A DNA stretch of 64,000 nt, taken from assembly GCA_029834535.1 (NCBI GenBank), contig JAQMWT010000009.1, positions 372,001 to 436,000 of the forward strand. Reading direction: 5' to 3'. The first letter of the stretch is position 1. Every line of letters begins with the position of its first letter. Made by a program: the position numbers and the translations under genes. This stretch comes from Chrysophaeum taylorii. Taxonomy: Eukaryota > Sar > Pelagophyceae > Pelagomonadales > Pelagomonadaceae. Shown here one piece after another: positions 1 through 30,340 of the stretch. Below the pieces are notes generated by a model. The model saw only the letters and a list, made by a program, of their open reading frames with translations, had not been told where the DNA came from and ran no database searches.

Positions 1-1416
1 CGAGTAAGAACATCCTTGAGATTGGTTTTGCGACGAGGCTGAGGGTGATGAGGACCACGGGTGAGACGTAGGACATCCTGGGAATAGAGAGACCGATAAG
101 ATGGTAAAAGTGGCAGAGTGTCGGGAGACACTTCAGATGTAGGTGTGGTGGCGGAAGTAGCGGGTGCAGGAGCAGCTGGAGCACATGCGGGAGCGGGAGA
201 GGGAGCATGGAGATGAGAAGAAGGAGTCCCCCTCTCATGGTCAGTGTCGGTAGGCATAGCATTCCCCCTCTGCGCCGCATCATTGGGGGTGCTGTGAACA
301 GAGAAGGGAATGTCGGGTGAAGGTGCGGGAGGTGGATGCTGTTCATAATCAGGAGGAGATTTAGAAATAAGATGAGGAAAAGTCAGTTTAGAGGAAACAC
401 GGACTTGACCGTTTTCAGGATTAAGGACAACATCGGCTAAATGATTAACATGGGGTGTTATTAAAGGGTTTATAACGTTAGCACCACATAAGTAGATGTA
501 GGGACGACATCGGGGTTCATATTTATGAAATTCGTTAGGTTCCAAATGCAAATAACAAACAGAACCAAAAGGTTTGAGGTAGTCTTGTTGGGGAACATTA
601 CATTGGTCTAACAAAACTTGTTGGGGGCTTAGGACTTTATTATAAATACGTTCGAGGGAAACGTTAGGGAGGAGATTATACGATTGGATAGCATGTATAA
701 CAGCCCACGGGTAGTGTGGTGCCGGATCTGATAGGGTGACCTTTATAGGATACATTAAGCATATGCCGGAGTCGTGTAGACGCGGCAGTGGCTATGTGAC
801 CAACAGCGGCTTCGACTTCATGATTAAAGACATGTAAGTAAGGGGGGAACGCGGACATATTAATACCATGTTCCACACGGAAGGGGGTTGTAACATGCTG
901 GGATAAATAGGGTTTAAAGGAATCACAATAAATTTGTTTTAGTTGTACATGAACATAAGTAGAGCAAAAATTGCGGACAAACTCACGGGCGTTACAAAAT
1001 TCGCTGGAGTTAGTGCTACGACAAAAGTACACTAACAGAAATTTAGAAATGAGACACTTGAAGACAATGATATGTCGAAAGGATCCCCATTCCGAGAGCA
1101 CAGAGACGTAACCACCGTCACATGCCCAAGCTTCACCAGGTTGAAAAATTTTTTCGAATGATGGTTGCTTGATAAGGTGGTGTGGGTGAGGAAAGCGTTT
1201 TTTATGAATCGTACAATCCACACAGAACTTACGGTAGGGTACGTCAGATGGGTGGTGTCCAGGACTAGCAATAACCTGAACAGCTTTTATGGCTTGAGAA
1301 TCACTGGAATGGTGAATGTTGTGAAAGTTAGTAGCTCGTTGTTGCGCATCTCGAAATGCAAGGGTACCCCTGGCATGGACTTTCTTATCGAAGGGTGCAT
1401 GCTTCTCATGGAGCTG
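1..1416 (-). CDS. copia integrase region, partial, with a frameshift
   Basis: After the TGA at 1417-1419 the same frame continues with an HHCC zinc-binding pattern: H-N-I-H near 1310, then C-V-D-C at about 1220. The integrase core follows, with A-C-D-G-G-Y (first Asp, about 1105), Y-C-D-S-F-K-P-Y (second Asp, about 930) and F-N-H-E-V-E-A-A-V-G (Glu, about 820). The D-D-E spacing matches the plus-strand copy at 19040-19440. Near 740 the frame shifts; the continuation (P-W-A-V-I-H-A-I-Q-S-Y-N-L-L-P-N) is in another frame and proceeds through the integrase C-terminal region and a Pro-rich linker to the window edge. Integrase joins element cDNA to host DNA. This copy looks inactive because of the frameshift. 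Confidence 0.75.
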
Positions 1417-3450
1417 TCATGGCGTTATGAGGGGTATTTGATTTTCTTTAGTGGGAGATGATATATCTGCGGATAGGATGTTAGAGAGATAAGCATGAGC
1501 TACTGAATCAGTATGAAAAGAGATAAGTTCGTGGTTAGAAGTGATAGTATCACAACATAAGAGTTTTTTATTGGAGATGTAGAACATATTAATGGAACTC
1601 TGGTGTAATGTTAAGGATGTATCTGTTGGGAATATATTTGTGAAGAAGGTTGACCTATAGTTTTTGGTTAGAGGAGCGTGATCAGGGTCAAACGATGGTG
1701 ATAGCGTTAATGTACGCAAGTCGTAAACAAGCTGACATAAGTGTTTATAAATAGTATGATATGTTCCAGCTGGAATAGCATTTGCGACGATATCACAGCA
1801 TAGGACAGGGGACAAAGACAAAAGAAAATTGACTTGGTGCGCTGTGAAGTTATTGGCGCGTGCCAATTCGCGAGTTGAGTAGTGTCGGATGCGATCGAGT
1901 CGTGGATCGTACACGAGCATATTAGCAAATCCACGAATGGTAGGAGTGGGAGTATATATAGAGTGAACTTTGGCACCCATCTTCCTGTCGCTTGATGTTA
2001 TAAAGCCCAAATATCTGCCTTGGGACAAATGCATGTCACTTAAAGCAAATATTTTGTCGATAAATTCAAGACGATTTTCCTGAGGGTAGAAGACAAAAGA
2101 ATCGTGAAATACAGGAGAGGTATATGAAACCAGTGCTTGTACTAGACGACGCGTGTCTTGATTTTCATTATGATGGTATGCTTGGCAAAGCCAAAGAAAA
2201 CCGGTAACTGGTTCGAGAGAAGCAGTTTTGTCGATTCCGGCATCGTGTGTTAAAAAGGAGTAGGTTTCGCCAAAAGCATTTATGTGTGCCTGGTATTTAG
2301 AAGAAGAGTTAGAAACTGTTATGTCTCCGCCTGTATGTCTTCCACCAGTGATGTAAATGATGGATGAAGTAGAGGATTTATTTAAGAATAACCTGTGAGA
2401 TGGTTGGTTAGATTCGATAGTTGTAATACGAAAGGACACAGGTAATGTGATGGATTTAGGGAATAATCGTCCCATAATATTATAGAGGAGCACAAAAGCT
2501 TTGAGTTCAATAGGGGATCTCATGCAAGCAAGTGGTTTTCTTGAATTAGTCAAGAATCCCAGGCGAAAGTTAGAAATGCCCTCCATTTCATCTTGACTGG
2601 GATGTTCGACTGTTTTATTAGAGTGCAGACGAAGGAACAGCATAGTTAAGGTTTCAAGCTCAGTCACAGTTAAGCGCACGGATCCTGTACGACTAAAAAA
2701 TGTTGTAGGTTTTATAGGTGTGGACACGAATGGTATGTCAGGAAAGACCTGCGTCCAAGGTTCGTCGACTATTAACTTGCGACTGATGGAGTTAGCGTGG
2801 TCTGCAATATCCAGGAAAGAAGTGACTCGTTTATTAGGCCATGAAAGCAGATCAAGAGGGCCGGTGTTATATTTGCGTGCGACGAGGATCCATCTTTCTC
2901 TGGCTTGATAATCTCCACATAAATAGCATGGAAATCGGTCACATATGTCCACCGTATAGTGCATCGTTGAGAAGATGAGATTAGCAACTCGTATATGATC
3001 TTCATACGATGCGGAGTGTGGTGGTGTCATTTCCATGAAGAGAACAAGCGGCTTTAAAAGCTCAAGTACACTTAGAGCACTTGGGAACAAAGAATCATCC
3101 ATATCGCGCTCGAAGGTGGAAATGGATCTCCCATTGATTATGTTGCGATTTGTGCATGGTGATGTCAATTCCACTATGTCAGTGTAATATCGTGCACGTT
3201 CAACGTCCGATGCTCGATGGAGATATGTCAAAAACTTAGGTAGGGATGGGAAAACTTCGATGGAATTACCAAAACGTCTTCGTAGCATGTGCGTGATATT
3301 GTCGTCGCTCTCAACAAGAACTTTAACGTTGATGTTGATTTGCAAGTCATTAGAAGCGCAAGCCAAGAATGCAGGAGTGGACATCCCAGAGCAAAGTAAA
3401 GTTACTGTAGGTATTCGTGGGCTAGGAGATGAAGTTACTGTATGGAGCAA
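1417..3450 (-). CDS. retroelement-encoded C5-cytosine DNA methyltransferase
   Basis: The 677-residue product carries the ordered motifs of DNA C5-methyltransferases, enzymes that move a methyl group from S-adenosylmethionine to cytosine C5. Motif I is LLCSGMSTPAF (SAM binding, about 3405-3365) and motif II is VLVESDD. Motif IV is LTSPCTNRN with the catalytic Pro-Cys (about 3170-3143), and motif VI is MEMTPPH (ENV-like Glu). Motif VIII is YQARERWILVARK (QxRxR type, about 2915-2877). Motif IX is STRELARANNF (about 1890-1845) and motif X is ANAIPAGTY (GNAxP type, about 1790-1750). The roughly 330 residues between VIII and IX would be the target recognition domain. The frame has no stop, unlike its plus-strand relative. 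It lies between protease and integrase; TGA at 1417-1419 separates it from integrase in the same frame. Overall divergence from host enzymes is large, so specificity cannot be predicted. Confidence 0.78.
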   Translation of the reverse strand: MLHTVTSSPSPRIPTVTLLCSGMSTPAFLACASNDLQININVKVLVESDDNITHMLRRRFGNSIEVFPSLPKFLTYLHRASDVERARYYTDIVELTSPCTNRNIINGRSISTFERDMDDSLFPSALSVLELLKPLVLFMEMTPPHSASYEDHIRVANLIFSTMHYTVDICDRFPCYLCGDYQARERWILVARKYNTGPLDLLSWPNKRVTSFLDIADHANSISRKLIVDEPWTQVFPDIPFVSTPIKPTTFFSRTGSVRLTVTELETLTMLFLRLHSNKTVEHPSQDEMEGISNFRLGFLTNSRKPLACMRSPIELKAFVLLYNIMGRLFPKSITLPVSFRITTIESNQPSHRLFLNKSSTSSIIYITGGRHTGGDITVSNSSSKYQAHINAFGETYSFLTHDAGIDKTASLEPVTGFLWLCQAYHHNENQDTRRLVQALVSYTSPVFHDSFVFYPQENRLEFIDKIFALSDMHLSQGRYLGFITSSDRKMGAKVHSIYTPTPTIRGFANMLVYDPRLDRIRHYSTRELARANNFTAHQVNFLLSLSPVLCCDIVANAIPAGTYHTIYKHLCQLVYDLRTLTLSPSFDPDHAPLTKNYRSTFFTNIFPTDTSLTLHQSSINMFYISNKKLLCCDTITSNHELISFHTDSVAHAYLSNILSADISSPTKENQIPLITP

Positions 3451-3468: not shown

Positions 3469-4428
3469 TCATACAGGAGGTGGGAAATGCTTGCGCATGT
3501 AAGGCAGCTGCGAATGCATTGACTCCAATATGGTTTTAAGCCATGGGACGTAAATTACTCGTTCCATGAGGGTGGAATAAAGTTTGAGCATTTCGCGTTG
3601 TTCATTAAAAGCACATAGTCTGAACTGTAGTGAGCGAAGTTCCATTTTACGCGCTTTTGCTTGTTGTAGCGAGTAAATTGGTAGAGTTGGCAACAGGTTA
3701 CTGAGTCTAAACAAAGTAATCTTGACATTATCATCAATTTTACTCTGGATAGATGATTGTCCTTTAAATTCAACTCCATAAAGATGTATACCAAGTTTAT
3801 CTTCTCCCCATTGAGTCATACTGATGATGTGCAGATCGGGATCGTTATGGTCGTTTTGCTTGGGTAGAAAAAGCGCAACGTCTAGCTTTACATATCCCAC
3901 ATTTGGATGCTTTAGGAGAGCGGGAATAACGGTCCTTATAATCATAGCATGTGTGATTCTCTGCGTATCCGTAGCAGTCTGGATAGCAGGTGATAAGGAC
4001 TCGGGTAGCTTTACGATGTGGATAGGATCAGCATAACGTTTAAAGTTAATTACATGTTGAGAAGCACATGTGTCAGCATATCCTGGCGTAGTCATTAGCG
4101 GCAAATTGTACTCGTTGTACAGTTTAAGCATTGTTGCATAACAGGCATGTGTTGAGCTTTGACCAAACACGTACTGTGTCATGAAACTTTGCGTTTGTTC
4201 GGAAGGCACAACGACGAGTGTAAAACCAGTATTTAATTTTGGTAGCAACACAGGGGGATCTGTACCATCTTCGTTGGTTAAATTACTGGGGAGCTCAGAG
4301 TGCGAGGAAGTTTCCCGAGCTTGACGACGAACGATAGCATTCTGAGCTTTAGCATTTATGTGCTGCAATAGCGGCTGAGGGATGTTATCGATTTCATCAT
4401 CTTTAATGGACAGAAAAGTGTGGAACAT
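3469..4428 (-). CDS. retropepsin-like aspartic protease region of copia element
   Basis: This 319-residue frame has the outline of a Ty1/copia retropepsin: Y-A-D-T-C-A-S at about residues 118-124 where D-S/T-G-A-S/T is expected, then an I-Q-T-A-T-D stretch, then V-x-L-D-V-A-L-F-L-P followed by H-I-I-S-M, which matches the usual V-L-Y-V-P...L-I-S-V pattern. The Gly of the active-site triplet is Cys here. The C-terminal third (Q-x-A-K-A-R-K-M-E-L-R-S-L and W-L-K) is shared with the plus-strand element. It ends in TGA at 3469-3471, and the methyltransferase follows in the same frame only 19 nt downstream. Substitution of the Gly makes activity doubtful. Confidence 0.55.
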   Translation of the reverse strand: MFHTFLSIKDDEIDNIPQPLLQHINAKAQNAIVRRQARETSSHSELPSNLTNEDGTDPPVLLPKLNTGFTLVVVPSEQTQSFMTQYVFGQSSTHACYATMLKLYNEYNLPLMTTPGYADTCASQHVINFKRYADPIHIVKLPESLSPAIQTATDTQRITHAMIIRTVIPALLKHPNVGYVKLDVALFLPKQNDHNDPDLHIISMTQWGEDKLGIHLYGVEFKGQSSIQSKIDDNVKITLFRLSNLLPTLPIYSLQQAKARKMELRSLQFRLCAFNEQREMLKLYSTLMERVIYVPWLKTILESMHSQLPYMRKHFPPPV

Positions 4429-6200: not shown

Positions 6201-6976
6201 GATTGTGACCTATTAAGGGATAGGTTGGAGGATTGATAGACAGATTCGACACACACACACCCCTCTTAGCAGTCGACATTTAAAGACAGATTCGACACAT
6301 AAGAATGAAGGGTTTCTCAAGTGCGGGTTCTATGTACATTACGCGATTTTTAAACGTGGGTTTATTGACAAGACCAAACAAATCAGCATGCTATTTTAAA
6401 CAGGGTGACTTGAGACTGAAGAATGGATTAGTTCTCGAGCAGTCAGTCTTTTGTTGGGGAATGGAAGTAAAAACCCGTACAAGTTTCCGCGGCTTGTATA
6501 GGAAAAATTTTAATTTTATTACTTATGCGAGTGCATGTGACCAGTGACCGACCCAACTCGGTCACAAACCAATTTAACTGGTGGGCACATACCGCCACAC
6601 AACAAATATGTACAGTAGACCACCGCCAAACACATTGTCGCATTGTACTCGTGATCAGGCGTAAATTGATCATTCGATTTAGACGTACAACACAGTTGGG
6701 CTAACACACCTACGCATCTGGGCCCATAACCTGGAGAGATTTGACCCTCTCCGGGTACATGGTAGAGACTGCGTGCAGTTTTAGGCGTGTACAGACCATT
6801 CCGCTTGTCACATGCTACTACACAAGGTAGGGATTTAGGCCCTAACTCCTTAAGGACATTAGGTCCCATAGAAGCGTTTACACTGACAACGGGGAACGAA
6901 GTCTCTGTTAATTAAACAGAAAACCCCGTACCCGACGGTACGCACCTGGAGGCCTACTCCATGTTGGAAAAGAGCT
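6201..6976. other. non-coding stretch, probable 5' LTR and leader of the minus-strand copia element
   Basis: No convincing gene is present. A 16-bp direct repeat (AGACAGATTCGACACA) occurs at 6238 and again at 6284, next to an (AC)n run at 6249-6260. By position, between copia gag and the cut-off gypsy RNase H, this should hold the copia 5' LTR and primer-binding site. I could not identify TG...CA ends or a tRNA-complementary site without the 3' LTR, which is outside the window. Confidence 0.4.
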
Positions 6977-8635
6977 TCAGACTGGGTTCTTCATAGTCGT
7001 GAAAGAAAAGGGGCGGAAGGGTAAGGAAAAGGAAGAAAGAGGGAAAGCCGTATTACGGAGAGAAAACCCTCGTGTAGAGATAGGTGTGAAAATGTTCCAG
7101 TGTCGCACACATAATAGTGTAGCTCTCTGGAAATACTCAATTACTCGTTCCTCTCGTGTCACCTTGCCGGTTTCGTCCTTGATTTCCACGAGCTGAAAAA
7201 GATACGCACCCAGACCATTCTTGGAAGCATCCGAGCGGATTTGAAAGGGAAGATCGTAGTCAGGATGATAAACTCCACGAGAATCCACGAAAGCTTCGAT
7301 GATCGTGTCCCATGCCTGTTGGCACTCAGGCGTCCATTCAAACTTAACGCCTTCAAGACACAATCGCCTAAGCGGCTCCACAATCTTCGAATAATTCTTC
7401 ACATATCGGCGGCAATAGTTGCTCATACCAATGAAAGATCGAATCTGGGTCTTCGGGGACGTATTGGGCAACGTACCGGAAATCGGCATCTGCTGCAACG
7501 CTTCTAACGTCTTGGGATTTGGCTTCAAGCCTTCCGGAGTCGAAATATGTCCCAAAAACTCGATTTTATCCTCGAGGAGGTGGAACTTCGAAGTTCGTCC
7601 ACTATATCCTCGCTGTGCTAAATGGCACAACACTTCAATCAAAACTTGTAAATGTCGATGGAGTTCATCCGATCCCATCATTATATCGTCGACAAACGCG
7701 ACCAAGTCCTTATACATCCATGTGGACAAATCGCTAGCCATCTGCTTACAAAAGAGAGCTCTTGCTGTTTTTACTCCTAGAGGCAAGCGCAAGAAACTAT
7801 GGGCTCCAAGTGGACTAACCATCGTAACAGCGTCCTGAGCAGCGGCGTCCAAACGTAAGTTATGATAACCCCATCGAATATCAATACACGTCCGCCAACG
7901 GCGCATGGCAAGAAAAGCCAAAGCATCATCTTGCCGAATATTCGGCCAACTGTCATTGACCAGCTGATCATTGAGCTGACGCAAGTCAACGGCAGCACGA
8001 AAAGCATTCGACGTCCCGGCCTCGGCTCCCTTCTTAGGCAGCATCAGTACAGGAAATCCCCACGGAGAGTTCGCCGGTCGGATGAGTCCATCGCGACACC
8101 ACTCAGTGATCTGTTTTCTGAGACGCTCGAGCTTTGCTGGCGTCAACCTATAAGGCGTCATCTTGATCGGTCGTGGGTTTGCGTCTTTAAAGCGTAGAGA
8201 AACCGGTGGCGAGTCCACGGGTCTCATAATCGGATCAAAGAAAGCCCACGCGTATAGCACGCAATAGCTCAACATCATCTTCGCATCATCATCCAAATGC
8301 GGGTTGTCGGGAATTCCTAGATCTCGAACAACCTTCTCAACTTCTTCCTTCGTCGGGATTACGACTTTCATCGCATCATTGTCCTTGACGTGCTCGGGAA
8401 TCTGCGGTAACGGTACACCGTCCGCATCGCGCGGCGCATCCTTCCATGGCACATCGAATTTTTCTTCGTATTTGAACCTCACCTCAGGGTGGCTCTTATT
8501 GATCTTTTCACCTTTGACGCGCACATTCGGCTCGCTCCTTACTTTCGGCTCCTGTTCAGGTTCAGGATCCGGCGGAACGTCTTTTTGATTGTCGGGGGGG
8601 GGCAGCAGAAAAAGCATGAGCCGTCCCCGGCGCAT
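6977..8635 (-). CDS. gypsy reverse transcriptase and truncated RNase H
   Basis: This 552-residue frame contains a Ty3/gypsy reverse transcriptase. Visible blocks are P-V-L-M-L-P-K-K, F-R-A-A-V-D-L-R-Q-L-N, C-I-D-I-R-W-G-Y-H (first catalytic Asp), L-P-L-G-V-K-T-A, then F-V-D-D-I-M (catalytic Asp pair, about 7700-7680), and F-L-G-H followed by the connection region F-I-G-M-S-N-Y-C-R-R-Y-V. RNase H begins with I-R-S-D-A-S-K-N-G-L-G-A-Y-L (about 7240-7195) but homology ends after I-E-Y-F (about 7115); the last 40 or so residues look like unrelated read-through. It overlaps the upstream ORF by 74 nt in another frame, with the shift at a run of nine C (plus-strand G9, 8594-8602). Without integrase the copy is not autonomous. 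Confidence 0.85.
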   Translation of the reverse strand: MRRGRLMLFLLPPPDNQKDVPPDPEPEQEPKVRSEPNVRVKGEKINKSHPEVRFKYEEKFDVPWKDAPRDADGVPLPQIPEHVKDNDAMKVVIPTKEEVEKVVRDLGIPDNPHLDDDAKMMLSYCVLYAWAFFDPIMRPVDSPPVSLRFKDANPRPIKMTPYRLTPAKLERLRKQITEWCRDGLIRPANSPWGFPVLMLPKKGAEAGTSNAFRAAVDLRQLNDQLVNDSWPNIRQDDALAFLAMRRWRTCIDIRWGYHNLRLDAAAQDAVTMVSPLGAHSFLRLPLGVKTARALFCKQMASDLSTWMYKDLVAFVDDIMMGSDELHRHLQVLIEVLCHLAQRGYSGRTSKFHLLEDKIEFLGHISTPEGLKPNPKTLEALQQMPISGTLPNTSPKTQIRSFIGMSNYCRRYVKNYSKIVEPLRRLCLEGVKFEWTPECQQAWDTIIEAFVDSRGVYHPDYDLPFQIRSDASKNGLGAYLFQLVEIKDETGKVTREERVIEYFQRATLLCVRHWNIFTPISTRGFSLRNTAFPLSSFSLPFRPFSFTTMKNPV

Positions 8636-11600
8636 CTGTTGGAAGCGGAAGCATAGGAGCTTCTAGCGGTTCCCATTTATTGGGATCCTGGAGATCATCC
8701 TTTGACACCCACTTAACGACACGAGTGCGCGTATTTAACAGCGGAATCTCTACGTGACGAAAGGTGGTGTCGGAGATTCGTAAATACTGCTCAAAGGATC
8801 GATCTGTCGGGCTCAACGCGGTCGGCAGGACTTCACCACTTTGGCGGAAACCTCTGGTCACGGAGTTGTGCAGATCGACTGCTAAAATCGCAAGAGTATC
8901 TGGAGGGACGACAGACGCCAAATGTTTGAACGAATCTGTCTTAGACAAGCTAGCCCAATCATGATCCACCGGCATCGTGAGCAACTCGGCCGTCATCTTG
9001 AGAGTCAAAGGCTGAGTGTCCGAGCGATGCGGTCCCAAACGAAGAGGAACCCGCGTAACGGTGTAAGCCGTATCTGCTGCTTCTCGGGACGAGCCAAGAT
9101 TATTCAGCTGGAGAAGGTGGCGTTCATGAGCATAACCTAAAGCTGCAGCAAAGTTTTGTTGCATGTTCCCACATGTCTTCGGAACCTCTTGCAAGTGCAG
9201 TGGGTGACTGGAAACCAACAATCGCACGCGAGAGCTCATCAGAGTAGGTGTGATATCGTGAAAATTGACGACGTACACGTAAGGGTGTAAGCGCGCTATA
9301 TACGAAATAATGGACGCCTCCTGTTCAATCAGCCACATCATGAAGCCAGCCATTTTGCACAGCTTCATCGTCCAGTTAGTGGCCGTAACACCCTTGCCAA
9401 CATCTCTGGATGTCAAGTTGCAGAGTGCTGAATGAACGCAGAGCGGAGACGCTATACACATCGACGATGACCATTCCGCTTCAGGCAAATAAGCCTTGAT
9501 CAACCGGAGGGTCGAGTCATATCGTCCACAGAGCGTGTGCTGGACCACAGGTATCTTCCGAAAATTCTTCTGATGAACCTTGTTGGCAGCTGTTGACGAG
9601 TCAAGAGCGAGAACGACTCGAAACGACGTCCCGCACAACTCGTTCGCTCGTTGCAATCCTAAAGTACTTCCTCCGGCGCCGCTGAAGAGCATCACAACCT
9701 TGCGATACGTGATCGGCACCCAGTGGACCTTTTCAAACCTTCGGCGAATCTCGCATTCTGTAACTTCTCGGCATTTCTTTTCCTCCTCGTCAGTTCGTCG
9801 GTCGAAATCGTCGTTACCGAGTGATTCTTGAGGAGAATTCTTCTTCTTATCGGCAGAAGGAGACGCCTTCTGCACTGAGCTCAAAAGCATCAGTTCGGGA
9901 GCCGCATTGCCTTGAGTAAGATGGCTTGCGACCGAAACAGTGAATAATAGGTTAGCCTTGTTAGATTCAGCTTCACCATCCTTCGTTAAATCGTCGACCG
10001 TCTCAGTATTCAGCTCGTCATCAAAACGAACAATATCGCCCAAAGCAAGGACTTCACCTAGAGTGATCACGGTCGGCACATCCTGGGTAGAGGATATCGC
10101 CACTCGAGCTGCGAACTTATCATGATCCTCAGGAGAAGAACACATTCCACCGACTACCCAGAGTTGCTCGTACCCAGAAGACGTAGCAACGAAAACTTGC
10201 CCAGTTTCCACGGGCTCCGAAAGAGCGACTGGCACGCAGTAGGTGTGCCCAGGCTCGACCTTCATCGTGCGCGCAGCATAGGCTATCACTTCATAAGCAT
10301 CGCTGTTCGAACTTTGAGAAGGCGTAACTGGAGGAACTCCCCAAGTCGTCGAAGCTCCCGCTCGTTTCGGCGGTGGACGCTGGAGGTCTTCAATCTTGCA
10401 CAAGCGAGCATAGACACGGTTCTCCACTATGCTCGGGCTTTGTTGCATCGCATGGTGCTGTTGCCCATAAACCTGAACTACCACGGGATTGCTCTCGTCA
10501 TAAGTTGTTCTGAACGTCAAAATCGGAGAATCTACTCGTCGATCCTGCACCTTTAACTTCTTGCGCCCGTAAGCGACTTGTGTGCGTAGAAACGCAATGC
10601 GATTCCGCGGGTAGTTCACTATGGCTCCAAACACCCGAATATCGCGCGCTCCCAGCAAAAATAGATGATTTGTATCGGCCACAATAACAACAACTGGAAC
10701 GGCTACGTCGTCCGCAAGCGCAATCCGCAATGCAACCCATTTGTGGATAGTCGTTTTGTTCAATCCTGACCCATACAAAGTGCGCTCGACTGGAAGATCG
10801 CCCCGGTCAAGGATGATGCTATCCTTTTCCAGTTTTTCAACCATCCCACGACAAATATAAGGGACATCAGCCATTCCATCCACGCCTAAAGTCGTTACAA
10901 ACTTCGGCCCGTCTCGTCGTCTATGAATATGACCAACTATAAACGTAAGGGTGCCAGGGTCCAGGCAACCGATGGTGATGAGGTCTTGCTCGATCTTTTC
11001 CCCATCGCTCGGCGACAGGGCAGTGTGATGACATCGTATCTCCGGTTTCGCATCGCCCGGAATCTGCATCGTCACCGCTGCTATATCTGGCGTACTACAT
11101 CTCGCCGCTGAATCTATATTGGCTCTCGCCGCTTCGGCTGCTTCTTCATTCCCCAGTTTCGCTGACAACAAATTCTGACACTTCTCAATCGGAGGCACAT
11201 ATATCTCCTCCTTTATCTCTTCTGGTAATCGTTTCTCGTCCATCAAATCGGACATTCCCGTCAACTTCTCCTCCATCGGCGCCGCTGTGGTCTGCTCTGC
11301 TGCGGCCAAAACTGTATCGGCTAGAACATCGGCTAAAACGGCTAAAACGGTCTCGGGGGGGGGGCTAGGAAAAGAAGACGTCGTCCCCGACGTCAACTCA
11401 AAGGGTCTAACGTCATCATCGTGAACTGCCCTGCAAGACATGCACATTGACGAATGAGGGGACACTGGAACCTGCGGCATGGGTTCGTCGGTCTCCGAAT
11501 CTGAGTCTTCCCAGTAGTGCGGAGAATCCCAAGTAGCATCTGACATTGCTTCCACATACGATGTAGAAGGCCACCGAACGATCCGAGCGTTGGTGGTATG

Positions 11601-11702
11601 TTGCTCCTGTTGCAAACGATGGCTGCTCGTTACAGCGACATCGGCAACATCATCGGAGACTCGGGCAGGGCGCGCCGTCGGGTAAAAGTCAACCCCCGAC
11701 AT
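8562..11702 (-). CDS. gypsy polyprotein part: retropepsin-like domain plus C5-DNA methyltransferase
   Basis: A 1046-residue frame. Residues about 260-365 look like a retropepsin: V-D-G-M-A-D-V in place of L-D-T-G-A-D-V, then H-L-F-L-L-G-A-R-D-I-R-V-F-G-A matching the L-L-G-x-D flap/helix motif. Residues about 480-590 resemble the beta-rich spacer often found before gypsy RT. From about 665 it is a DNA C5-methyltransferase. Motif I is VVMLFSGAGGSTLGLQ (about 9699-9655), motif II is VLALDSS, and motif IV is CIASPLC with the catalytic Cys (about 9460-9438). A possible motif VI is WLIEQ, motif VIII is SSRVRLLVS (about 9240-9207), motif IX is LTLKMTAELL, and motif X is VVPPDTLAILAVDL (about 8918-8873). 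Leu replaces the second Pro of SPPC. The same frame upstream holds the gag-like ORF, separated by TGA at 11751-11753. The RT ORF follows by frameshift. Confidence 0.82.
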   Translation of the reverse strand: MSGVDFYPTARPARVSDDVADVAVTSSHRLQQEQHTTNARIVRWPSTSYVEAMSDATWDSPHYWEDSDSETDEPMPQVPVSPHSSMCMSCRAVHDDDVRPFELTSGTTSSFPSPPPETVLAVLADVLADTVLAAAEQTTAAPMEEKLTGMSDLMDEKRLPEEIKEEIYVPPIEKCQNLLSAKLGNEEAAEAARANIDSAARCSTPDIAAVTMQIPGDAKPEIRCHHTALSPSDGEKIEQDLITIGCLDPGTLTFIVGHIHRRRDGPKFVTTLGVDGMADVPYICRGMVEKLEKDSIILDRGDLPVERTLYGSGLNKTTIHKWVALRIALADDVAVPVVVIVADTNHLFLLGARDIRVFGAIVNYPRNRIAFLRTQVAYGRKKLKVQDRRVDSPILTFRTTYDESNPVVVQVYGQQHHAMQQSPSIVENRVYARLCKIEDLQRPPPKRAGASTTWGVPPVTPSQSSNSDAYEVIAYAARTMKVEPGHTYCVPVALSEPVETGQVFVATSSGYEQLWVVGGMCSSPEDHDKFAARVAISSTQDVPTVITLGEVLALGDIVRFDDELNTETVDDLTKDGEAESNKANLLFTVSVASHLTQGNAAPELMLLSSVQKASPSADKKKNSPQESLGNDDFDRRTDEEEKKCREVTECEIRRRFEKVHWVPITYRKVVMLFSGAGGSTLGLQRANELCGTSFRVVLALDSSTAANKVHQKNFRKIPVVQHTLCGRYDSTLRLIKAYLPEAEWSSSMCIASPLCVHSALCNLTSRDVGKGVTATNWTMKLCKMAGFMMWLIEQEASIISYIARLHPYVYVVNFHDITPTLMSSRVRLLVSSHPLHLQEVPKTCGNMQQNFAAALGYAHERHLLQLNNLGSSREAADTAYTVTRVPLRLGPHRSDTQPLTLKMTAELLTMPVDHDWASLSKTDSFKHLASVVPPDTLAILAVDLHNSVTRGFRQSGEVLPTALSPTDRSFEQYLRISDTTFRHVEIPLLNTRTRVVKWVSKDDLQDPNKWEPLEAPMLPLPTDAPGTAHAFSAAPPRQSKRRSAGS

Positions 11703-16159: not shown

Positions 16160-16741
16160 TTGATGTCCACCTACGATTTCGCAATACCCAATCATATAAT
16201 TCCATTGGACTCCAAATACGCGCCGATTGTTATTCAGACGGCAACAGGACAACAACGGGCATCACAAATGATGTTAACACGCAACATCGTTATTCCCCTA
16301 CCAGATCATCCACAAGTTGGCTATGTTAAGATCGACTTCGCTTTATGTCTTCAACCAGTGCATGACCGACATCTCGCTATCCTGAGCATGCTCGAATGGA
16401 ACCAGACCAATCTTACCACCGTGTCCAACGATCGAGCTGAGCCAAAGCTCAGCGCTGTCACGAGCCGCATAGACAAAGATATTCGTATACCCATACACTA
16501 TGTCGCAGCTAATTTACCCGCTCTCCCTTGTATCACTTACAACATCGCGCGCGACAAGCAGCTCGAAATTCGTTCTCTCGCATTTCCCCTCAAGCGATAC
16601 CATGAAAACAGGGATCTACTGGCATACTACAACTACCTACTCCAAAGAGTTTTACCAGATCGCCCGTGGATCCGCCCTTTGGTTCTTAATCTTCGGAAAC
16701 AGAACAAATTTGTTCAGCAAAACACTCCACCATTAACATGA
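16160..16741 (+). CDS. retropepsin-like region of copia element
   Basis: The same frame as gag. Just upstream of the listed start it reads Y-F-D-S-R-A-T-I-S-L, where a copia protease has D-S-G-A-T; Arg replaces Gly. Then come I-V-I-Q-T-A-T-G and V-K-I-D-F-A-L-C-L...L-A-I-L-S-M, which match the minus-strand relative (I-Q-T-A-T-D; V-K-L-D-V-A-L-F-L; H-I-I-S-M). It ends T-P-P-L-T then TGA at 16739-16741; the methyltransferase ATG follows at once in the same frame. The altered triplet suggests an inactive or unusual protease. Confidence 0.5.
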   Translation: MMSTYDFAIPNHIIPLDSKYAPIVIQTATGQQRASQMMLTRNIVIPLPDHPQVGYVKIDFALCLQPVHDRHLAILSMLEWNQTNLTTVSNDRAEPKLSAVTSRIDKDIRIPIHYVAANLPALPCITYNIARDKQLEIRSLAFPLKRYHENRDLLAYYNYLLQRVLPDRPWIRPLVLNLRKQNKFVQQNTPPLT

Positions 16742-17667
16742 ATGCTTTCTCGTCCAGTGTTTCTCTCACAAGAGCCCAATCTTCGCAAACCCTCTGTCAT
16801 GTTACTTTGTTCTGGTTTGTCAACCCCAGCGTTCCTGTCTCAAGCCACTAATGACCTAGGCTTAAATATCAATGTAAGAGTTGTTGTTGAGTCTGATGAT
16901 ACGCTTGTGCGCATGTTACGCCACCGTTTTCCTACAGTATTATTATTTGAATCTTTGCCCGCTTTTATCAACCATCTTCACCAAATCTCACCAGAGGAAA
17001 GGCGCAAATTTTATTGTGATATTATCGAGATAACTCCTCCATGCACTAACAGGAATCTATTAAAGCAGCATAAGACCGAAGACTTACACAGCCTGCTCGA
17101 CGACTCCCTTTTCGACAGCATGCTGTCTGTCATCAAACTTCTCCAACCCTTGGTACTACTGGCTGAGATGACACCACCCCACAAGTACTGTCATCAAGAC
17201 CACATAACTGTGGCCAATCTCATCTATTCCACGCTCGATTACTGTGTTGATGTTGTTGACAGGTTCCCGACCTACCTATGTGGCGACTACCAATCTAGGG
17301 AAAGATGGATCTGCATCGCACGCAGGTATTCTACTGGACCAATCAACATACTCTCATGGTTTATCCACCACCCACGCCCCTTCTTTAAGATCGTGGATGA
17401 CATACAAGCCATTCCTAAACGACTTTGGCTTTCCTAAGATATTGCCAAAGACTGGATCCGGGTGTTCCCCGATCCACCAGATGTCCCCGTTCCTAAAACT
17501 TTTGCACCTTACTCTCGCACAGGTTCTGTTCAGCTTACCATGGCTGACCTCGAAACACTCAATTTTTACTATTTCTCCGCCTTCACTCACAACAGGCTCA
17601 CGAGCAACGCACGCACTCTGTTCAATCCGAGTGTACTTATCATCAGCTGTGTTTCAAACGCTCCTCC
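16742..17667 (+). pseudogene. N-terminal part of retroelement DNA methyltransferase, broken
   Basis: The product to 17437 has motif I MLLCSGLSTPAF (about 16799-16835), motif II VVVESDD, motif IV ITPPCTNRN with a standard Pro-Pro-Cys (17028-17055), motif VI AEMTPPH (about 17163-17183) and motif VIII YQSRERWICIARR (about 17287-17326). A TAA at 17435-17437 interrupts the frame, which otherwise continues (D-I-A-K-D-W-I-R-V-F-P-D) exactly where the minus-strand protein has an open frame; then a +1/-1 shift between about 17600 and 17668 moves to the frame of the large downstream ORF, where motifs IX and X lie. The enzyme was clearly once a full methyltransferase, and this copy is probably dead unless recoded. 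Confidence 0.75.
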
Positions 17668-20600
17668 ATGGAACCACTGCCACATGCAACTAATCCATTG
17701 CGTGTCAAGGCCTTCGCCATATTATACAACTTGTTTGCCAGATTGTTACTACTTACAACCTCATCAACATCACACAACACCTACTTCTTAACCGGTGGCC
17801 ACCACACTGACGGCAACCTCACCATAGAAAACGCCGCCGCCAAATATCATGCTTCCATTGACGCGTTTGGAGGCACGTATACGTTTGCTGCCTCCAGCGT
17901 CCCCTGCGACAGAGACAGATCTGTATATTTGGAGCCATTTGTGGGTTTCTTGTGGATCATCCAAGCCCTTCCTCAAGTTGGCTCCGCTGCCGCCTATGGC
18001 ACTGCCATACAAAAGCTCTTGTCCAGATCCTCTCTTGTGATGCCTGGCTGCCTTACCTACAAGGCCACCGACAATTCTTTCGACTACAAAGATTCACACT
18101 TTGCTCTGGAAGATCACCACTTGTCCCATAGTCGCTATATAGGGTATCTTCTTGGAAGTGACCGCAAACTTGGCTCTAAAATCCACTCCATGCTTGCTCC
18201 ATTGCCCACCGTCCGAGGATATGCAAACATTATCTTACTCGACCCTCGCAACGGGAAATTGCGCTATCCCACTCGACCGGAGTTGATTCGTGCTAACAAC
18301 CACACCAAACAACAGGAGTCTTTCCTCTTGTCTCTTCGCCACGACCTTTGCTGTGACATGCTCAGCAATGCTCTGCCTGCCGGTACGTACAGCACACTGC
18401 ACAAGAACATCTCGCTCCTCGTTGCCGATATTAAGTCCCTTATGTTGGACCCTACCTTCCAACATGCTGCTGCCGTGATGAAGAAATCCTATGTATCCAC
18501 CTTCCTGACCTTTGATCCGGCCTCCACCACGTGCAGCACAGATACCTTGTCTTTGGCACAAGCCTTCATGACTTCTATCTCCAGCAACTGCTTGACCGAA
18601 ATGTCGTTAAACTATATGTCTTCGTCATCCTACGAAGATACTCTAGCTACTTGTGATGATGAGGACGCACCTCCAAGTGACCCTGCTGCGCACCAGGATG
18701 ACGACGCACCGCCTCCTCCTGCCTTGGACACCGAACTCAAGTTCGATGTTCGGCGCAAACGTCATATCCCCGCTCATCCCATTACTCGCAAATCCCTCGC
18801 ACACGGATCCGCTGAATATCTCAACGCCAAAGAACGTGCCAATCGCTTCCACCGGGTGCACCACTGCCCCGACAACGTTGCAGCCAAGGCCCCCAACGTA
18901 CTGGCTCGCCCTGGCTTCTCTGCCTCAGATCTACCGTATCGCGACTTATGCACCGACTGCATCGCGCACAACAAGCGCCACCCGCACAAGCACTTCAATC
19001 CGACCAAGCCCTCTTTTGAGCAAACTCACAAAGCCGGCGAAGTCTGGGCGTGCGACGGCGGCTATGTGACAATTCCATCAGAATGGGGAGGCTTCACACA
19101 TATTATTGTGTTCAAGGAACTTATCTCGAAGTTTCTCTTGGTGTACTTTACACGCACCACCAACGCCACGGAGTTCACTCAAGCTCTGGACTTTGTGTAT
19201 GACTTTTGTCGTACACAACTCAACGTGCACCTGCGCACCCTCTACTCCGATGCTTTCAAGCCCTATTTTAGCCAGCACATTACCGCCCCGTACCGCGTCG
19301 ATAAGGGCATTCAGCTCATCGCTTTCCCGCCGTACATGCACCACTTTAACTTTGAAGTTGAGTCAGCCATCGGCTTCATCGCCTCCGCCTCCTCAACTCG
19401 CCTTCGTTCTCTCCTTAATGCTCATTATCGTGGCTCCAAGATCGTGGAACCAGCCATCATGTTTCCCTGGGCGGTGATACACACCATCCAAAGCTACAAC
19501 CTTCTCCCGAACGCCACGCTCGAGCGCATTCACCATGCTATCCTGAGTCCGCAACAGCTACTCTACAATCAACTGAGCACTCCCCAGCATGACATGCTCA
19601 AGATCTTCGGCGCTGAATGCTACCTTCTATTGGAACCCCACGAGCACCACAAGTGGGAACCGTGCCGCCGCAAATACTTATATCTATGTTGCGCCAACGC
19701 GCAAAACCCGCTCGTCTCCCCACGTGTTGACCATATTGCCGACGTCGTCCTCAACCCTGAAAACGGACAAATCCGTGTTTCGTCCAAGCTGCAATTCCTC
19801 TACATGCTCCAGCATCCTACTCCTGATCCTGAACTTGCTCCTCCGCCTCACGCTCCTCCCGCGCCTTTCTCGCTCACACCCCACGCTGCTATCCAAGACC
19901 ATTTCATTCAGAGGGGGGCACGGACACCTCATCCTCAGAGGGGGCACTCTCCACCTCCCTCAGCTCCTTCTTCGTCCCCTGCTCCTGCTTCTCCTCCTTC
20001 CGACGCTCCCGTCGACGATTCTGGCTCTATGCCACCGCCGCCCTTGCTTCCTTCTTACAAAGACCTTTTTGCACAAGATGACCTCATTCTTGTCCCAGGT
20101 TCCAAACAACCTAACAACCGCAAGGCAACCTCCATGAAAAATATCCAAGCCCGGCTGCAAGCGTCTACTATTGGTGCTTACAAAGCCGCTGGTGGCAAAC
20201 TCGCCGATTTCCGCTGGGATCTTCGCCACCACTTTCTTACGTTCAAGTCTCCCGCCCTCTCCGCCCTTCATATCAATGGTGGTATCCTCTGGTCTGCTAT
20301 CTGCTCAGAGGGGGAACATGCGTTGTTAGCTCGTCTTCTTCTCCCGTTGCGCACTGACTTACTTGCCCGTTACCCTCACGTCGATGGTTACTTCGCCCAC
20401 GCTAAGTGCGCATCCAGCATCCCAGCCGCAACCTTTCTAACTGCTGATGGTTCACCTACGCGCTCCATTCCTCAGCCTCTTTTAGCTGCGTTCACTGAGC
20501 ACGCTGCTGCCTTTGGCATTTCTTCACTACAGTATGCACTTACGTATCTGGCGCCGACCAGCTTTATCGATCACAATTCTTCCGAGTTTGGCGCTAATTC

Positions 20601-22575
20601 TGCATCTCTGTCTGACTTGGAGGAATACCTTCTGGTCTCTACAGAGTATATCACTCAGGTCTTACATGCCGACCCTACTATCCATATTCAACTGGAATCT
20701 GCTTCCTCTACCCCTCCTACTGACGCTGTTTCCGCTTATCCCGAAGTCGCGCACACTGCCTCGACCGCAACGTCGTTAAACTATAGTTCACCAGCCACTG
20801 TTGGTCCTGATGAATACAAGGTCCAAGAAGCGGACGTTTCCATCGACGAATACAAGCTCAAGTGCCTCCACGGTATGTCGCCTGAAGACAGGCACGCCTA
20901 CCTCAAGGCCATCGCCAAGGAACTCCACGACATTGTCCGCTTTGGCTGCTTCAAGCTTTCATTACCCGACGGTGTCTCTCGCCCTATTGACAGCAGGATG
21001 GTGCTGAAGATTAAAACGGACTCTGCAGGCAAATACGTTAAGCACAAGGCTCGCCTCGTGCTACGTGGCTTCCTAGCCTCCCTTGGCGCCGATTTCTTTG
21101 GCACCTTCAGCCCAATGGCCACAATGACCGCAATCCGGGTACTACTGGCGATTGCAGCATACAAGCAATTGCCTGTCTACCACGCAGACGTCCCGAACGC
21201 CTTCGTTCAGTCTGACATTGATGCCAACGTCTATGTTCAGTTACCAGACGGCATCAAGCTTATCGACCCCGATGACGCTAAGTACAAGGGCCGACGCCTA
21301 CCGAAACTGCTGAAGTCACTTTATGGACTTCGGCAATCGCCATCTCTTTGGAACAAAGAGATAGACGGCTTCTTCCGTAGCCTTGGCTACAAGCGCCTGC
21401 ATTCGGACCCTCGCCTATATGCTCGAGTATCCGCACATGCTAAGTTCGTCGTATGCAGTCTGTCTGTAGACGACATTGTTATTGTGTCCAATGATGACAC
21501 TCTTCGTACTGAGTTACAGGATGCCCTCCACAAACGGTATGCTGTAGAGCAGTTTGAACCTGTCCATACTCTCCTAGGCATGCGTGTGTGTCGTACATCT
21601 GATGGATCCATTTCCCTGGATGTGCAAGCCAAGCTTGATGAACTCTTCGCTGATCATCCTGTCTTGCAGCAACTTACTCCGCTTAAATATCCTATGTCCT
21701 CGTCCTTCAAGTATAAAGATGGCACTCCCAGCTCTGAAACAGAGTTGTATATCAACTCGCACTTTGCCACCCTCCTTGGCAAGCTGGTATTATGTAGTCC
21801 AGATGCTAGAACACCTGCTCCGCTACCCGAGGAAGCCGGAAACCGCTCACTTCGCCTCTGGTTTCATCCTAAAGGTAATGCTATTGAAGCTCACCTTCGC
21901 ACTGTTTCCGCTAATCGAATTGATCTCTCTACTGTGGTTGACTACCAACCGCAGGATGTATCCACTGGACAGTTTGATCCCTTAGTAGCCATGGTCGACG
22001 CTGACAATGCCCCTTCCTTAGCACAGGAAGATAGGAAATCTACCACCGGGTTTGTCTTCTATCTTTTCAACTGCCTTATTTGTTGGAAAAGCAAGCTTCA
22101 ACCGATTGTCTCCTGCTCAACTCACGAAGCTGAGTTGATTGCCCTCAGTATTTGTGCTGATGAAGCTGTTTGGCTACGCAAGCTGCTGTTGGAACTCTCC
22201 TTTGTCGTCAACCCCACCTTCTACGTCAACAATGTTAATGGTGAGAACACCGCTGATCCTGTTGACTTCGATGACAATGACAACCCAATTGCTGAAGATA
22301 TGCGCTTCATCAGAAGCCTCCCTCTCTTGTCTGACAATGCTGCTGCTGTTCACACCTCTAATAACCCAGATGGATCCTCTCGCTCCAAGGCACTGTCGAC
22401 CAGATGGTTTAAGATCCGTGAGTACATCTCGCTACAGAAAATTCGAGTCCATCATGTTCCCGGCAAGCTAAACGTGGCTGATGGTTTTACAAAGCCACTT
22501 GCTGCTGAGTTCTCCACTTTTCGTTCTCTACTCGGTATGCATCATGCCTCTGATGACAAGCCTCTACAGGATTGA
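17668..22575 (+). CDS. copia polyprotein: methyltransferase C-terminus, integrase, reverse transcriptase, RNase H
   Basis: A 1635-residue frame. Residues 1-260 finish the methyltransferase: motif IX TRPELIRANN (about 18268-18297) and motif X SNALPAGTY (about 18364-18390). The HHCC zinc pattern is F-H-R-V-H-H ... C-T-D-C (about 18845-18960). The integrase core has A-C-D-G-G (about 19048), Y-S-D-A-F-K-P-Y (about 19245) and F-E-V-E-S-A-I-G (about 19350). A Pro-rich linker follows. Copia RT shows H-A-D-V-P-N-A-F (about 21180) and S-V-D-D-I-V-I-V (about 21465). Copia RNase H has D-R-K-S-T-T-G-F-V-F, W-K-S-K-L-Q-P-I-V-S-C-S-T-H-E-A-E-L and H-V-P-G-K-L-N-V-A-D-G-F-T-K-P. S-L-N-Y motifs sit at 18604 and 20773, on both sides of integrase. 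This frame is long and open, so decay is recent. Confidence 0.92.
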   Translation: MEPLPHATNPLRVKAFAILYNLFARLLLLTTSSTSHNTYFLTGGHHTDGNLTIENAAAKYHASIDAFGGTYTFAASSVPCDRDRSVYLEPFVGFLWIIQALPQVGSAAAYGTAIQKLLSRSSLVMPGCLTYKATDNSFDYKDSHFALEDHHLSHSRYIGYLLGSDRKLGSKIHSMLAPLPTVRGYANIILLDPRNGKLRYPTRPELIRANNHTKQQESFLLSLRHDLCCDMLSNALPAGTYSTLHKNISLLVADIKSLMLDPTFQHAAAVMKKSYVSTFLTFDPASTTCSTDTLSLAQAFMTSISSNCLTEMSLNYMSSSSYEDTLATCDDEDAPPSDPAAHQDDDAPPPPALDTELKFDVRRKRHIPAHPITRKSLAHGSAEYLNAKERANRFHRVHHCPDNVAAKAPNVLARPGFSASDLPYRDLCTDCIAHNKRHPHKHFNPTKPSFEQTHKAGEVWACDGGYVTIPSEWGGFTHIIVFKELISKFLLVYFTRTTNATEFTQALDFVYDFCRTQLNVHLRTLYSDAFKPYFSQHITAPYRVDKGIQLIAFPPYMHHFNFEVESAIGFIASASSTRLRSLLNAHYRGSKIVEPAIMFPWAVIHTIQSYNLLPNATLERIHHAILSPQQLLYNQLSTPQHDMLKIFGAECYLLLEPHEHHKWEPCRRKYLYLCCANAQNPLVSPRVDHIADVVLNPENGQIRVSSKLQFLYMLQHPTPDPELAPPPHAPPAPFSLTPHAAIQDHFIQRGARTPHPQRGHSPPPSAPSSSPAPASPPSDAPVDDSGSMPPPPLLPSYKDLFAQDDLILVPGSKQPNNRKATSMKNIQARLQASTIGAYKAAGGKLADFRWDLRHHFLTFKSPALSALHINGGILWSAICSEGEHALLARLLLPLRTDLLARYPHVDGYFAHAKCASSIPAATFLTADGSPTRSIPQPLLAAFTEHAAAFGISSLQYALTYLAPTSFIDHNSSEFGANSASLSDLEEYLLVSTEYITQVLHADPTIHIQLESASSTPPTDAVSAYPEVAHTASTATSLNYSSPATVGPDEYKVQEADVSIDEYKLKCLHGMSPEDRHAYLKAIAKELHDIVRFGCFKLSLPDGVSRPIDSRMVLKIKTDSAGKYVKHKARLVLRGFLASLGADFFGTFSPMATMTAIRVLLAIAAYKQLPVYHADVPNAFVQSDIDANVYVQLPDGIKLIDPDDAKYKGRRLPKLLKSLYGLRQSPSLWNKEIDGFFRSLGYKRLHSDPRLYARVSAHAKFVVCSLSVDDIVIVSNDDTLRTELQDALHKRYAVEQFEPVHTLLGMRVCRTSDGSISLDVQAKLDELFADHPVLQQLTPLKYPMSSSFKYKDGTPSSETELYINSHFATLLGKLVLCSPDARTPAPLPEEAGNRSLRLWFHPKGNAIEAHLRTVSANRIDLSTVVDYQPQDVSTGQFDPLVAMVDADNAPSLAQEDRKSTTGFVFYLFNCLICWKSKLQPIVSCSTHEAELIALSICADEAVWLRKLLLELSFVVNPTFYVNNVNGENTADPVDFDDNDNPIAEDMRFIRSLPLLSDNAAAVHTSNNPDGSSRSKALSTRWFKIREYISLQKIRVHHVPGKLNVADGFTKPLAAEFSTFRSLLGMHHASDDKPLQD

Positions 22576-29001: not shown

Positions 29002-29730
29002 CAGCGAGATGCCGCCGAGAAGATATCTTCTCTTCTTACGACGACGACGACGACGAATGGGCGGCGGCTTTCGCCAGGAGATCCCGCCCGATCCGGTCCG
29101 ATTCGAGCCTCCAGTGTGTTCATATTTAGTTCTTGCTCTTTTTGCAATGGGTGGTTTTTTGCAATCATGATGTTTCGGAACAACCACGCACAACGAAGGC
29201 CACTTCCTGCTTTCTGATGGCCTGCTCTTTAGGAATCGGCATCCTCATTTTAGCCTGAAGGAAGGTGGTCGACCCTGCGTGGTAAAATATGTAAAATTTC
29301 GTATTTTCTTGTTTTGATCCGAAGGTAGTTTAGTTAGTTAGATCCTGGGCCTTTTGACGAAGCAAGCTTGAGGGAAGAGAAGAACCTGGGTCCTCACGCA
29401 GCCAGTCGGCTTGAGAGAAGCAGGACCTCCTTTAAACAGCGTGGGCCCTCATCCTTTCCCGCTCCCTTGGTCGCATTCCCTGAAGGGAGCTCTCCCTAGA
29501 AACCTGGACGGGCTTGCGTGTATGTCTTAGCCGCCGACGCGGTGCTGGCCGAGTCAAAACGGTGCCAGGCGGTCCGTGCGCGACGCCCGCCATAAGTGTC
29601 GAGCGTAGACGCAGAATCACCAACTGAGTATTCGCGCCCTCGGTTGGTAGCAATACAGTCGTCCCAGTCGCCGGGTCGGTTTCTGGCTGCTCGGTGCAAC
29701 TTTGTTGCTTGCTCCTATGCTTTGCGAGCG
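29002..29730. other. intergenic region, nothing recognised
   Basis: Contains a short run of CGA-type triplets (29040-29055) directly after the membrane-protein gene and scattered short frames on both strands. None has a recognisable domain. Confidence 0.4.
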
Positions 29731-30150
29731 TCATCAGACTCGCGTCATCAGACTCGCGTCATCAGACTCGCGTCATGAGACTCGCGTCATGAGACTCGCG
29801 TCATGAGACTCGCGTCATGAGACTCGCGTCATCAGACTCGCGTCATCAGACTCGCGTCACGAGACTCGCGTCATCAGACTCGCGTCATCAGACTCGCGTC
29901 ATCAGACTCGCGTCATCAGACTCGCGTCATGAGACTCGCGTCATGAGACTCGCGTCATCAGACTCGCGTCATGAGACTCGCGTCATGAGACTCGCGTCAT
30001 GAGACTCGCGTCATGAGACTCGCGTCATGAGACTCGCGTCATCAGACTCGCGTCATGAGACTCGCGTCATCAGACTCGCGTCATCAGACTCGCGTCATCA
30101 GACTCGCGTCATCAGACTCGCGTCATCAGACTCGCGTCATCAGACTCGCG
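29731..30150 (+). repeat. 14-bp minisatellite, 30 units
   Basis: Thirty uninterrupted head-to-tail copies of TCATSAGACTCGCG. Two variants, C and G at the fifth base, alternate in blocks; reading left to right the order is C3 G4 C2, one TCACGAG unit, C4 G2 C1 G5 C1 G1 C6. Because 14 is not a multiple of 3, all three frames are open and repeat every 42 bp, which creates spurious Arg/Ser-rich frames. There is no unique spacer, so it is not a CRISPR array. Confidence 0.95.
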
Positions 30151-30340
30151 TCAGACTCTCCATAATCAACAAGATGGCCTCCGCTTTTCTCCACCCGTCT
30201 TTGATTTTTACAGGAGCCGCCGAGCTACACTCGAGAACGTACTCCGCCAGGCTTTCTCGTGTCTAGGACCGGCCGACTGCAGAAACGTGGACTGCTGGCT
30301 CGAAGGACGTCGTTCACTTCATCGATAACCTGCAGTGGAA

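Follow-up and report, generated by a model that had tools for sequence, protein, structure and literature searches.

Why would a mobile element carry an enzyme that hosts use for silencing? This puzzle is raised by a stretch of 64,000 nucleotides from Chrysophaeum taylorii (contig JAQMWT010000009.1, positions 372,001 to 436,000 of the forward strand; C9:372001-436000 in our numbering, hereafter the window), in which a Ty1/copia retrotransposon contains an open frame with the motifs of a C5-methyltransferase, that is, of a DNA methyltransferase (DNMT). Our sequence comparisons support well the view that this copia-borne C5-methyltransferase is real. Enzymes of this kind were found here in three copia subfamilies, the window element belonging to subfamily 1, and in one gypsy-type family. 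As a whole explanation, to which we assign a probability of roughly two in three, we propose that a C5-methyltransferase was captured by a Ty1/copia lineage, that it would be produced by reading through a UGA codon and packaged, and that it would mark the complementary DNA (cDNA) or the DNA at the insertion site.

A methyltransferase frame between protease and integrase

The frame (1417-3450, minus strand) encodes 677 amino acids, starts with a TTG codon and has zero internal stops. All the motifs listed in the earlier note were located in it, and in the correct order: motif I, LLCSGMST (residues 18-25; 3376-3399, minus strand as for the following motifs); motif IV, TSPCTNRN (residues 96-103; 3142-3165); motif VI, FMEMTPPH (residues 138-145; 3016-3039); and motifs VIII, DYQARERW (residues 180-187; 2890-2913), IX, STRELARAN (residues 525-533; 1852-1878), and X, ANAIPAG (residues 556-562; 1765-1785). 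The same note had put about 330 residues between motifs VIII and IX. We counted 337, motif VIII ending at residue 187 and motif IX beginning at 525, and the position of this spacer suggests that it is probably the target-recognition domain.

The host is a 12.2 kb Ty1/copia element, bounded by 401-bp long terminal repeats (LTRs) that are direct repeats with 97.5% identity. Its 5' LTR lies at 6732-7131 (minus strand), and the 3' LTR of the pair lies left of the window (C9:366913-367313). Just inside the 5' LTR is the primer binding site GGTTATGGGCCCAGATGCG (6713-6731, minus strand), presumably complementary to the anticodon arm of the initiator tRNA-Met. Priming by a half tRNA is the mode used by Drosophila copia. 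The C-terminal part of the first open reading frame (ORF1, Gag-protease; 3469-4428, minus strand) ends at a TGA and includes a copia-like aspartic protease region (3766-4104, minus strand) in which D-T-C-A-S stands in place of the catalytic D-S/T-G. This region had no Pfam match, and its motif and position point to a protease. On the other side of the methyltransferase, an integrase core (rve) match (841-1143, minus strand; E 9.8e-4, below the Pfam cut-off) lies inside the open reading frame 676-1221, and the reverse transcriptase (RVT_2, E 1.2e-32) lies left of the window. Hence the placement proposed in the earlier note, a methyltransferase between protease and integrase in a copia element, is seen in the window copy and, as described below, in its sister elements.

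Note that, apart from its methyltransferase frame, the window copy is damaged, and that no target-site duplication is evident for it. Copy C523 carries a 5-bp duplication, ACTCC, and shows the order LTRs, ORF1 (769 aa), methyltransferase frame with SH3_retrovirus, and RVT_2 (E 1.9e-42) in the next frame. Copy C242 joins methyltransferase, rve and SH3 in one frame of 1184 residues, and copy C331 has rve, SH3_retrovirus and RVT_2 in one frame, in an order that the plus-strand element of the window shares; the rve and SH3 matches of C331 and of this element are each below the Pfam cut-offs. None of the fetched copies scanned joined methyltransferase, integrase and reverse transcriptase in one uninterrupted frame. 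The methyltransferase is flanked by a pair of repeats of about 400 bp in 5 of the 11 stretches fetched (window, C523, C317, C314 and C546, the last 84% identical), and insufficient length or damage may account for their absence from the rest.

Purifying selection among the copies

The genome searches covered the assembly of 70.8 Mb in 697 contigs. A red-type rbcL on its contig C697, which we assume to come from the same organism, scored best in the PDB against the diatom enzyme 7yk5 and points to a photosynthetic stramenopile as the probable host. A whole-frame search with subfamily 1 listed 71 matches. We compared 25 same-genome copies, the 20 best-scoring of these 71 plus 5 more divergent ones. 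The catalytic Cys of motif IV (P98-C99), the Glu of motif IX and the Asn of motif X were kept in 25/25, the Glu of motif VI in 24/25, and the two Arg of QARER in 25/25 and 24/25. In motif I, where F-x-G-x-G-G is expected, the first Gly was kept in all 25 and the later glycines are replaced (CSGMST). The P-C of motif IV is present too in the sequences labelled P0002 and P0005, in the plus-strand copy and in the subfamily 3 copy. Internal stops were absent from 21 of the 25 copies, a count favoured by the choice of best matches.

The ratio of nonsynonymous to synonymous substitutions (Ka/Ks) was low. For the 298 of 300 copy pairs within the Ks bins, the median was 0.16, 0.13, 0.085 and 0.071 at Ks 0.01-0.15, 0.15-0.5, 0.5-1 and >1, respectively. 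By region, the catalytic cores were most constrained (0.069 for residues 1-205 and 0.075 for 486-590), followed by residues 206-485 (0.099) and the tail (0.21). The methyltransferase motifs are thus under purifying selection among the copies, and the lack of motif conservation that the earlier note had named as a refutation was not seen in the 25 copies read. Motif conservation and purifying selection rule out chance or artefact.

These data bear on an alternative that we consider unlikely, namely that the protein of subfamilies 1 and 2 is a homologue with lost or reduced catalysis that now binds DNA or cDNA within Pol, for example in integration-site choice. The later glycines of motif I and the Asn of ENV are indeed replaced in both subfamilies and in P0002 and P0005, whereas PCQ and ENV are intact in the copy read from subfamily 3. 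There the motif VI Glu is followed by Asn, in place of which subfamilies 1 and 2 have Met. The lack of a clear mutational trace of self-methylation, described below, would also suit such a protein. Opposed to it are the retention of the catalytic Cys, the VI Glu, the VIII Arg, the IX Glu and the X Asn in 24-25 of the 25 copies, and the fact that the catalytic cores have the lowest Ka/Ks of all regions.

Family assignment by profiles and fold

The profile search proposed in the earlier note placed relatives of the window protein in a methyltransferase family, but not the window protein by itself. Against the Pfam family DNA_methylase (PF00145, cut-off 22 bits), P0005, a protein with 38% identity taken from an ENA record, scored 23.0 bits and the subfamily 3 copia methyltransferase 34.3 bits (E 2e-8), both above the cut-off; P0002 (20.2 bits), L041 (15.2 bits) and the plus-strand copy (13.7 bits) were below. 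Membership of PF00145 would therefore reach the window protein via these relatives. A profile of the family matched C5-methyltransferases in the PDB at E 1.4e-5. The resemblance is more than chance, because Ka/Ks is 0.07-0.16, relatives are at or above the Pfam threshold and the PDB profile match stands at E 1.4e-5. In NCBIfam, none of P0001, P0002, P0005 and the plus-strand copy had a fitting match, a protein search with the subfamily 3 sequence returned no matches, and scans of viral contigs, which may omit records close to the genome of the window, found no relatives. Two frames of the assembly, one DNMT2-like and the other a second DNMT, matched weakly in a profile comparison (P 0.029 and 0.15).

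The best fold matches of the low-confidence AlphaFold model were DNMT1, DNMT3 and M.HhaI. The comparison that the earlier note had suggested thus ranked DNMTs on top, and a fold other than that of a methyltransferase did not emerge, as far as a model of this confidence can tell. DNMT1 and DNMT3 ranked within 1 Z unit of each other on this low-confidence model, so that it does not favour the Dnmt3 clade over DNMT1. The whole-protein model was poor, and its Foldseek list mixed dehydrogenases with DNMT3. These matches also touch on a second alternative, improbable in our view, in which the enzyme would be DNMT2-like and methylate RNA, either the tRNA primer or the genomic RNA, protecting or regulating priming. 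The element appears to be primed by an initiator-tRNA-Met fragment, and packaging with the reverse transcriptase would bring the enzyme near the tRNA. On the other hand, the 50 rows shown of the fold comparison, which cannot exclude DNMT2, contained DNMT1, DNMT3, MET1, DIM2 and M.HhaI and no DNMT2, and the assembly has a separate DNMT2-like gene.

Sister elements in the same genome

A survey of related elements for the same domain order, another suggestion of the earlier note, found it in sister subfamilies. The plus-strand copia element of the window belongs to subfamily 2, and its methyltransferase homologue is about 50% identical in the N-terminal part. The earlier note had described the frame as shared with this element: the homologue is present, but the frame is not open there. 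It is broken (16763-18648, plus strand) into an N part (16763-17659) with one stop and a C part (17557-18648) in another frame. The C part belongs to a 1635-aa frame (17668-22575, plus strand) that continues with an integrase match below the cut-off and RVT_2 (E 2.5e-41).

Subfamily 3 (L048 and L049; G000:C582:15601-19800) encodes a canonical DNMT, with PCQ, ENV and ANAVP, between a protease-like region and an integrase-like sequence. In the one copy read (C582), Gag and Pol are in different frames, and no stop separates the protease-like region from the methyltransferase. Moreover, a gypsy-type element of the window (6977-11702, minus strand; RVT_1, RT_RNaseH_2) has an upstream frame with the motif FSGAGG and a DNA_methylase match of E 3.5e-4 and 20.5 bits, under the cut-off of 22. 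Among the matches listed there were 150 for the protease/methyltransferase junction of subfamily 1, 150 for subfamily 2, 151 for subfamily 3 and 117 for the gypsy-type methyltransferase. These counts are not exact copy numbers, because the listings include fragments and probably duplicate contigs.

The protease active site varies between the subfamilies. D-T-C-A-S is found in the subfamily 1 copies that show the site; three subfamily 2 copies have D-S-R, D-S-C or G-S-C, then A-T, and one subfamily 3 copy has D-G-G-A-S, not D-S/T-G. At a further locus, L047 (G000:C621:16501-19500), a long frame listed as 2086 aa, which may be a host gene or part of a mobile element, has a C5-methyltransferase with ENV and with T-S-C at motif IV. 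Elsewhere in the window, about 24 tandem repeats of about 510-550 bp overlap long minus-strand frames at 45396-57750, followed towards the window end by arrays of 153-bp and 60-bp repeats, and a 14-bp tandem array lies at 29630-30245.

A conserved UGA before the methyltransferase

In the window copy, an in-frame TGA (3469-3471, minus strand; TGA CGC AAG) separates the protease region from the methyltransferase. This codon was present just 5' of the methyltransferase in 10 of the 11 fetched subfamily 1 copies, including one only 71% identical; the eleventh, C572, is rearranged upstream. It was in frame at 19 of the 20 loci L001-L020, and shifted at L008. Genome-wide, where the exact codon was deduced from stop counts, a TGA occurred in the searched stretch of 147 of the 150 subfamily 1 junctions among the matches listed (2 had no stop and 1 only TAA), and in 146 of the 150 listed for subfamily 2 (4 without a stop). 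In the plus-strand element the in-frame TGA lies at 16739-16741 (plus strand), with ATG as the next codon.

The next codon differs between the two subfamilies. In subfamily 1 it is CGC, or CAC in 2 of 20 loci. Searches with three patterns gave 129 subfamily 2 sites, with CTA at 93, ATG at 25 and ATA at 11, and the reversed-pattern controls gave 0 matches each. Experiments have shown UGA CU(A) to be a leaky context (PMC4207609). With the UGA conserved in two subfamilies and this leaky CUA context, a readthrough Pol probably begins with the enzyme. As another possibility, ribosomes could reinitiate at an ATG 3' of the stop; 25 of the 129 sites in subfamily 2 would permit this, but 93 carry CTA. 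Between the stop and the first codon of the frame, an in-frame ATG was absent from all 20 subfamily 1 loci. Readthrough is thus more likely than reinitiation, since no ATG directly follows the stop in the subfamily 1 loci read. An RNA structure 3' of the stop was unsupported in the 4 copies analyzed (z-scores -0.11, -1.16, 0.18 and -0.26).

Search for a trace of self-methylation

Several results weigh against a captured, active and self-marking methyltransferase. The full-length window protein had no Pfam match, and its core scored 11.9 bits against PF00145, below the cut-off. The altered motifs I and VI of subfamilies 1 and 2 may leave room for reduced catalysis. No clear signature of CpG decay was found in the element, and the C-to-T excess at CG within the frame was not significant (20/143 vs 63/622, p 0.18). 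CpG observed/expected was 0.87-0.99 in the element. Three stretches of the window that lie outside the element and are richer in GC gave 1.12-1.32, and base composition may account for this mild difference. Since this difference is mild and C-to-T at CG is not significant, heavy CpG self-methylation followed by decay is disfavoured. Methylation in another sequence context, at a low dose or with efficient repair would fit the missing trace.

The same values bear on a third alternative, action in trans on host chromatin, by which the enzyme would shape the methylome or counter silencing. The abundance of the genes (117-151 among the matches listed for each of the four families) is in its favour, and effects of such elements on the host epigenome have been suggested (PMC5890265). 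Yet placement in a readthrough Pol predicts low, particle-bound amounts, and the ratio of 1.12-1.32 in the three stretches outside the elements means no decay there, so we regard a role in trans as quite unlikely.

Proposed mechanism

We return to capture, readthrough and marking of the element's own DNA. The protease-like/integrase position, the motifs, the purifying selection and the UGA of two subfamilies are read from the sequence, and the later steps are our inference. Gag-protease would be the main product. A minority of ribosomes would pass the UGA, often UGA-CUA in subfamily 2, and make methyltransferase-integrase-reverse transcriptase-RNaseH. The enzyme would then be packaged with reverse transcriptase and integrase into the virus-like particle, where it could methylate the element's own new cDNA, or the DNA near the insertion, before or at integration; the long VIII-IX spacer probably holds the target-recognition function. 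As to the benefit, our own guess is that the new copy may arrive looking like any other methylated chromatin, which would limit damage or DNA sensing.

Most simply, the capture would predate the split of the three copia subfamilies. A more specific scenario, for and against which we see the odds as evenly balanced, is that the copia clade placed the methyltransferase into Pol before this divergence, that two subfamilies meter the enzyme by a leaky UGA so that it enters Gag-Pol particles only and marks cDNA prior to integration, and that the gypsy lineage, which has a DNMT of its own at another position, represents convergence of two LTR superfamilies.

One genome with at least three copia subfamilies plus a gypsy family, canonical and divergent enzymes and an apparent translational switch makes direct tests feasible: which DNA becomes methylated, when, and whether the element needs the enzyme.

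Comparison with known systems

Ty1/copia elements in general, including the diatom CoDi elements, have LTRs, a protease, and an integrase before the RVT_2 reverse transcriptase. The elements described here share this plan and differ by a methyltransferase inserted after the protease and before the integrase; two of the subfamilies also have a UGA that separates Gag-protease from the rest. The earlier note held that this arrangement is not standard. For copia this stands within the literature searched: in the open-licence literature, subscription papers and preprints being outside its scope, no other paper among those listed was recognised as describing a DNMT at this place in copia. Retrotransposon methyltransferases as such, in contrast, were published in 2018 (PMC5890265). 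The main new points are the probable readthrough arrangement and the occurrence in several lineages; retrotransposon DNMTs were already known.

PMC5890265 reports DNMTs in dinoflagellate LINE and DIRS elements and in charophyte Gypsy elements and describes the Copia superfamily of Symbiodinium as free of any DNMT domain; self-methylation of retrotranscribed DNA was proposed for the dinoflagellate and charophyte elements. Among the closest cases described there is KnitGypsy-Dnmt3 of Klebsormidium nitens, likewise an LTR element whose Pol includes a C5-methyltransferase, with many copies and purifying selection on this domain; it is Gypsy-type and of the Dnmt3 clade, whereas here the element is Ty1/copia, with the methyltransferase before the integrase, a long VIII-IX spacer and a UGA at the protease/methyltransferase border. 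SymbioLINE-Dnmt and SymbioDIRS-Dnmt3 of Symbiodinium, as presented there, resemble our case in hundreds of retrotransposon-borne DNMTs per algal genome and more than one element type. They are LINE and DIRS elements and not copia, and SymbioLINE-Dnmt is reported to have lost CpG, whereas here there is no clear trace. In the passages seen, PMC9998398 and PMC3145265 deal with diatom DNMTs and with CoDi copia elements and mention no DNMT carried by copia. One sentence of a 2025 paper (PMC12344493) names LTR Copia and DIRS elements with embedded DNMT3. It cites the 2018 paper, in which the element from a streptophyte is of Gypsy type, and the passages seen mention no copia element of a stramenopile. 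To the cases already known in LINE, DIRS and Gypsy elements, those in the copia elements of a probable photosynthetic stramenopile are thus added.
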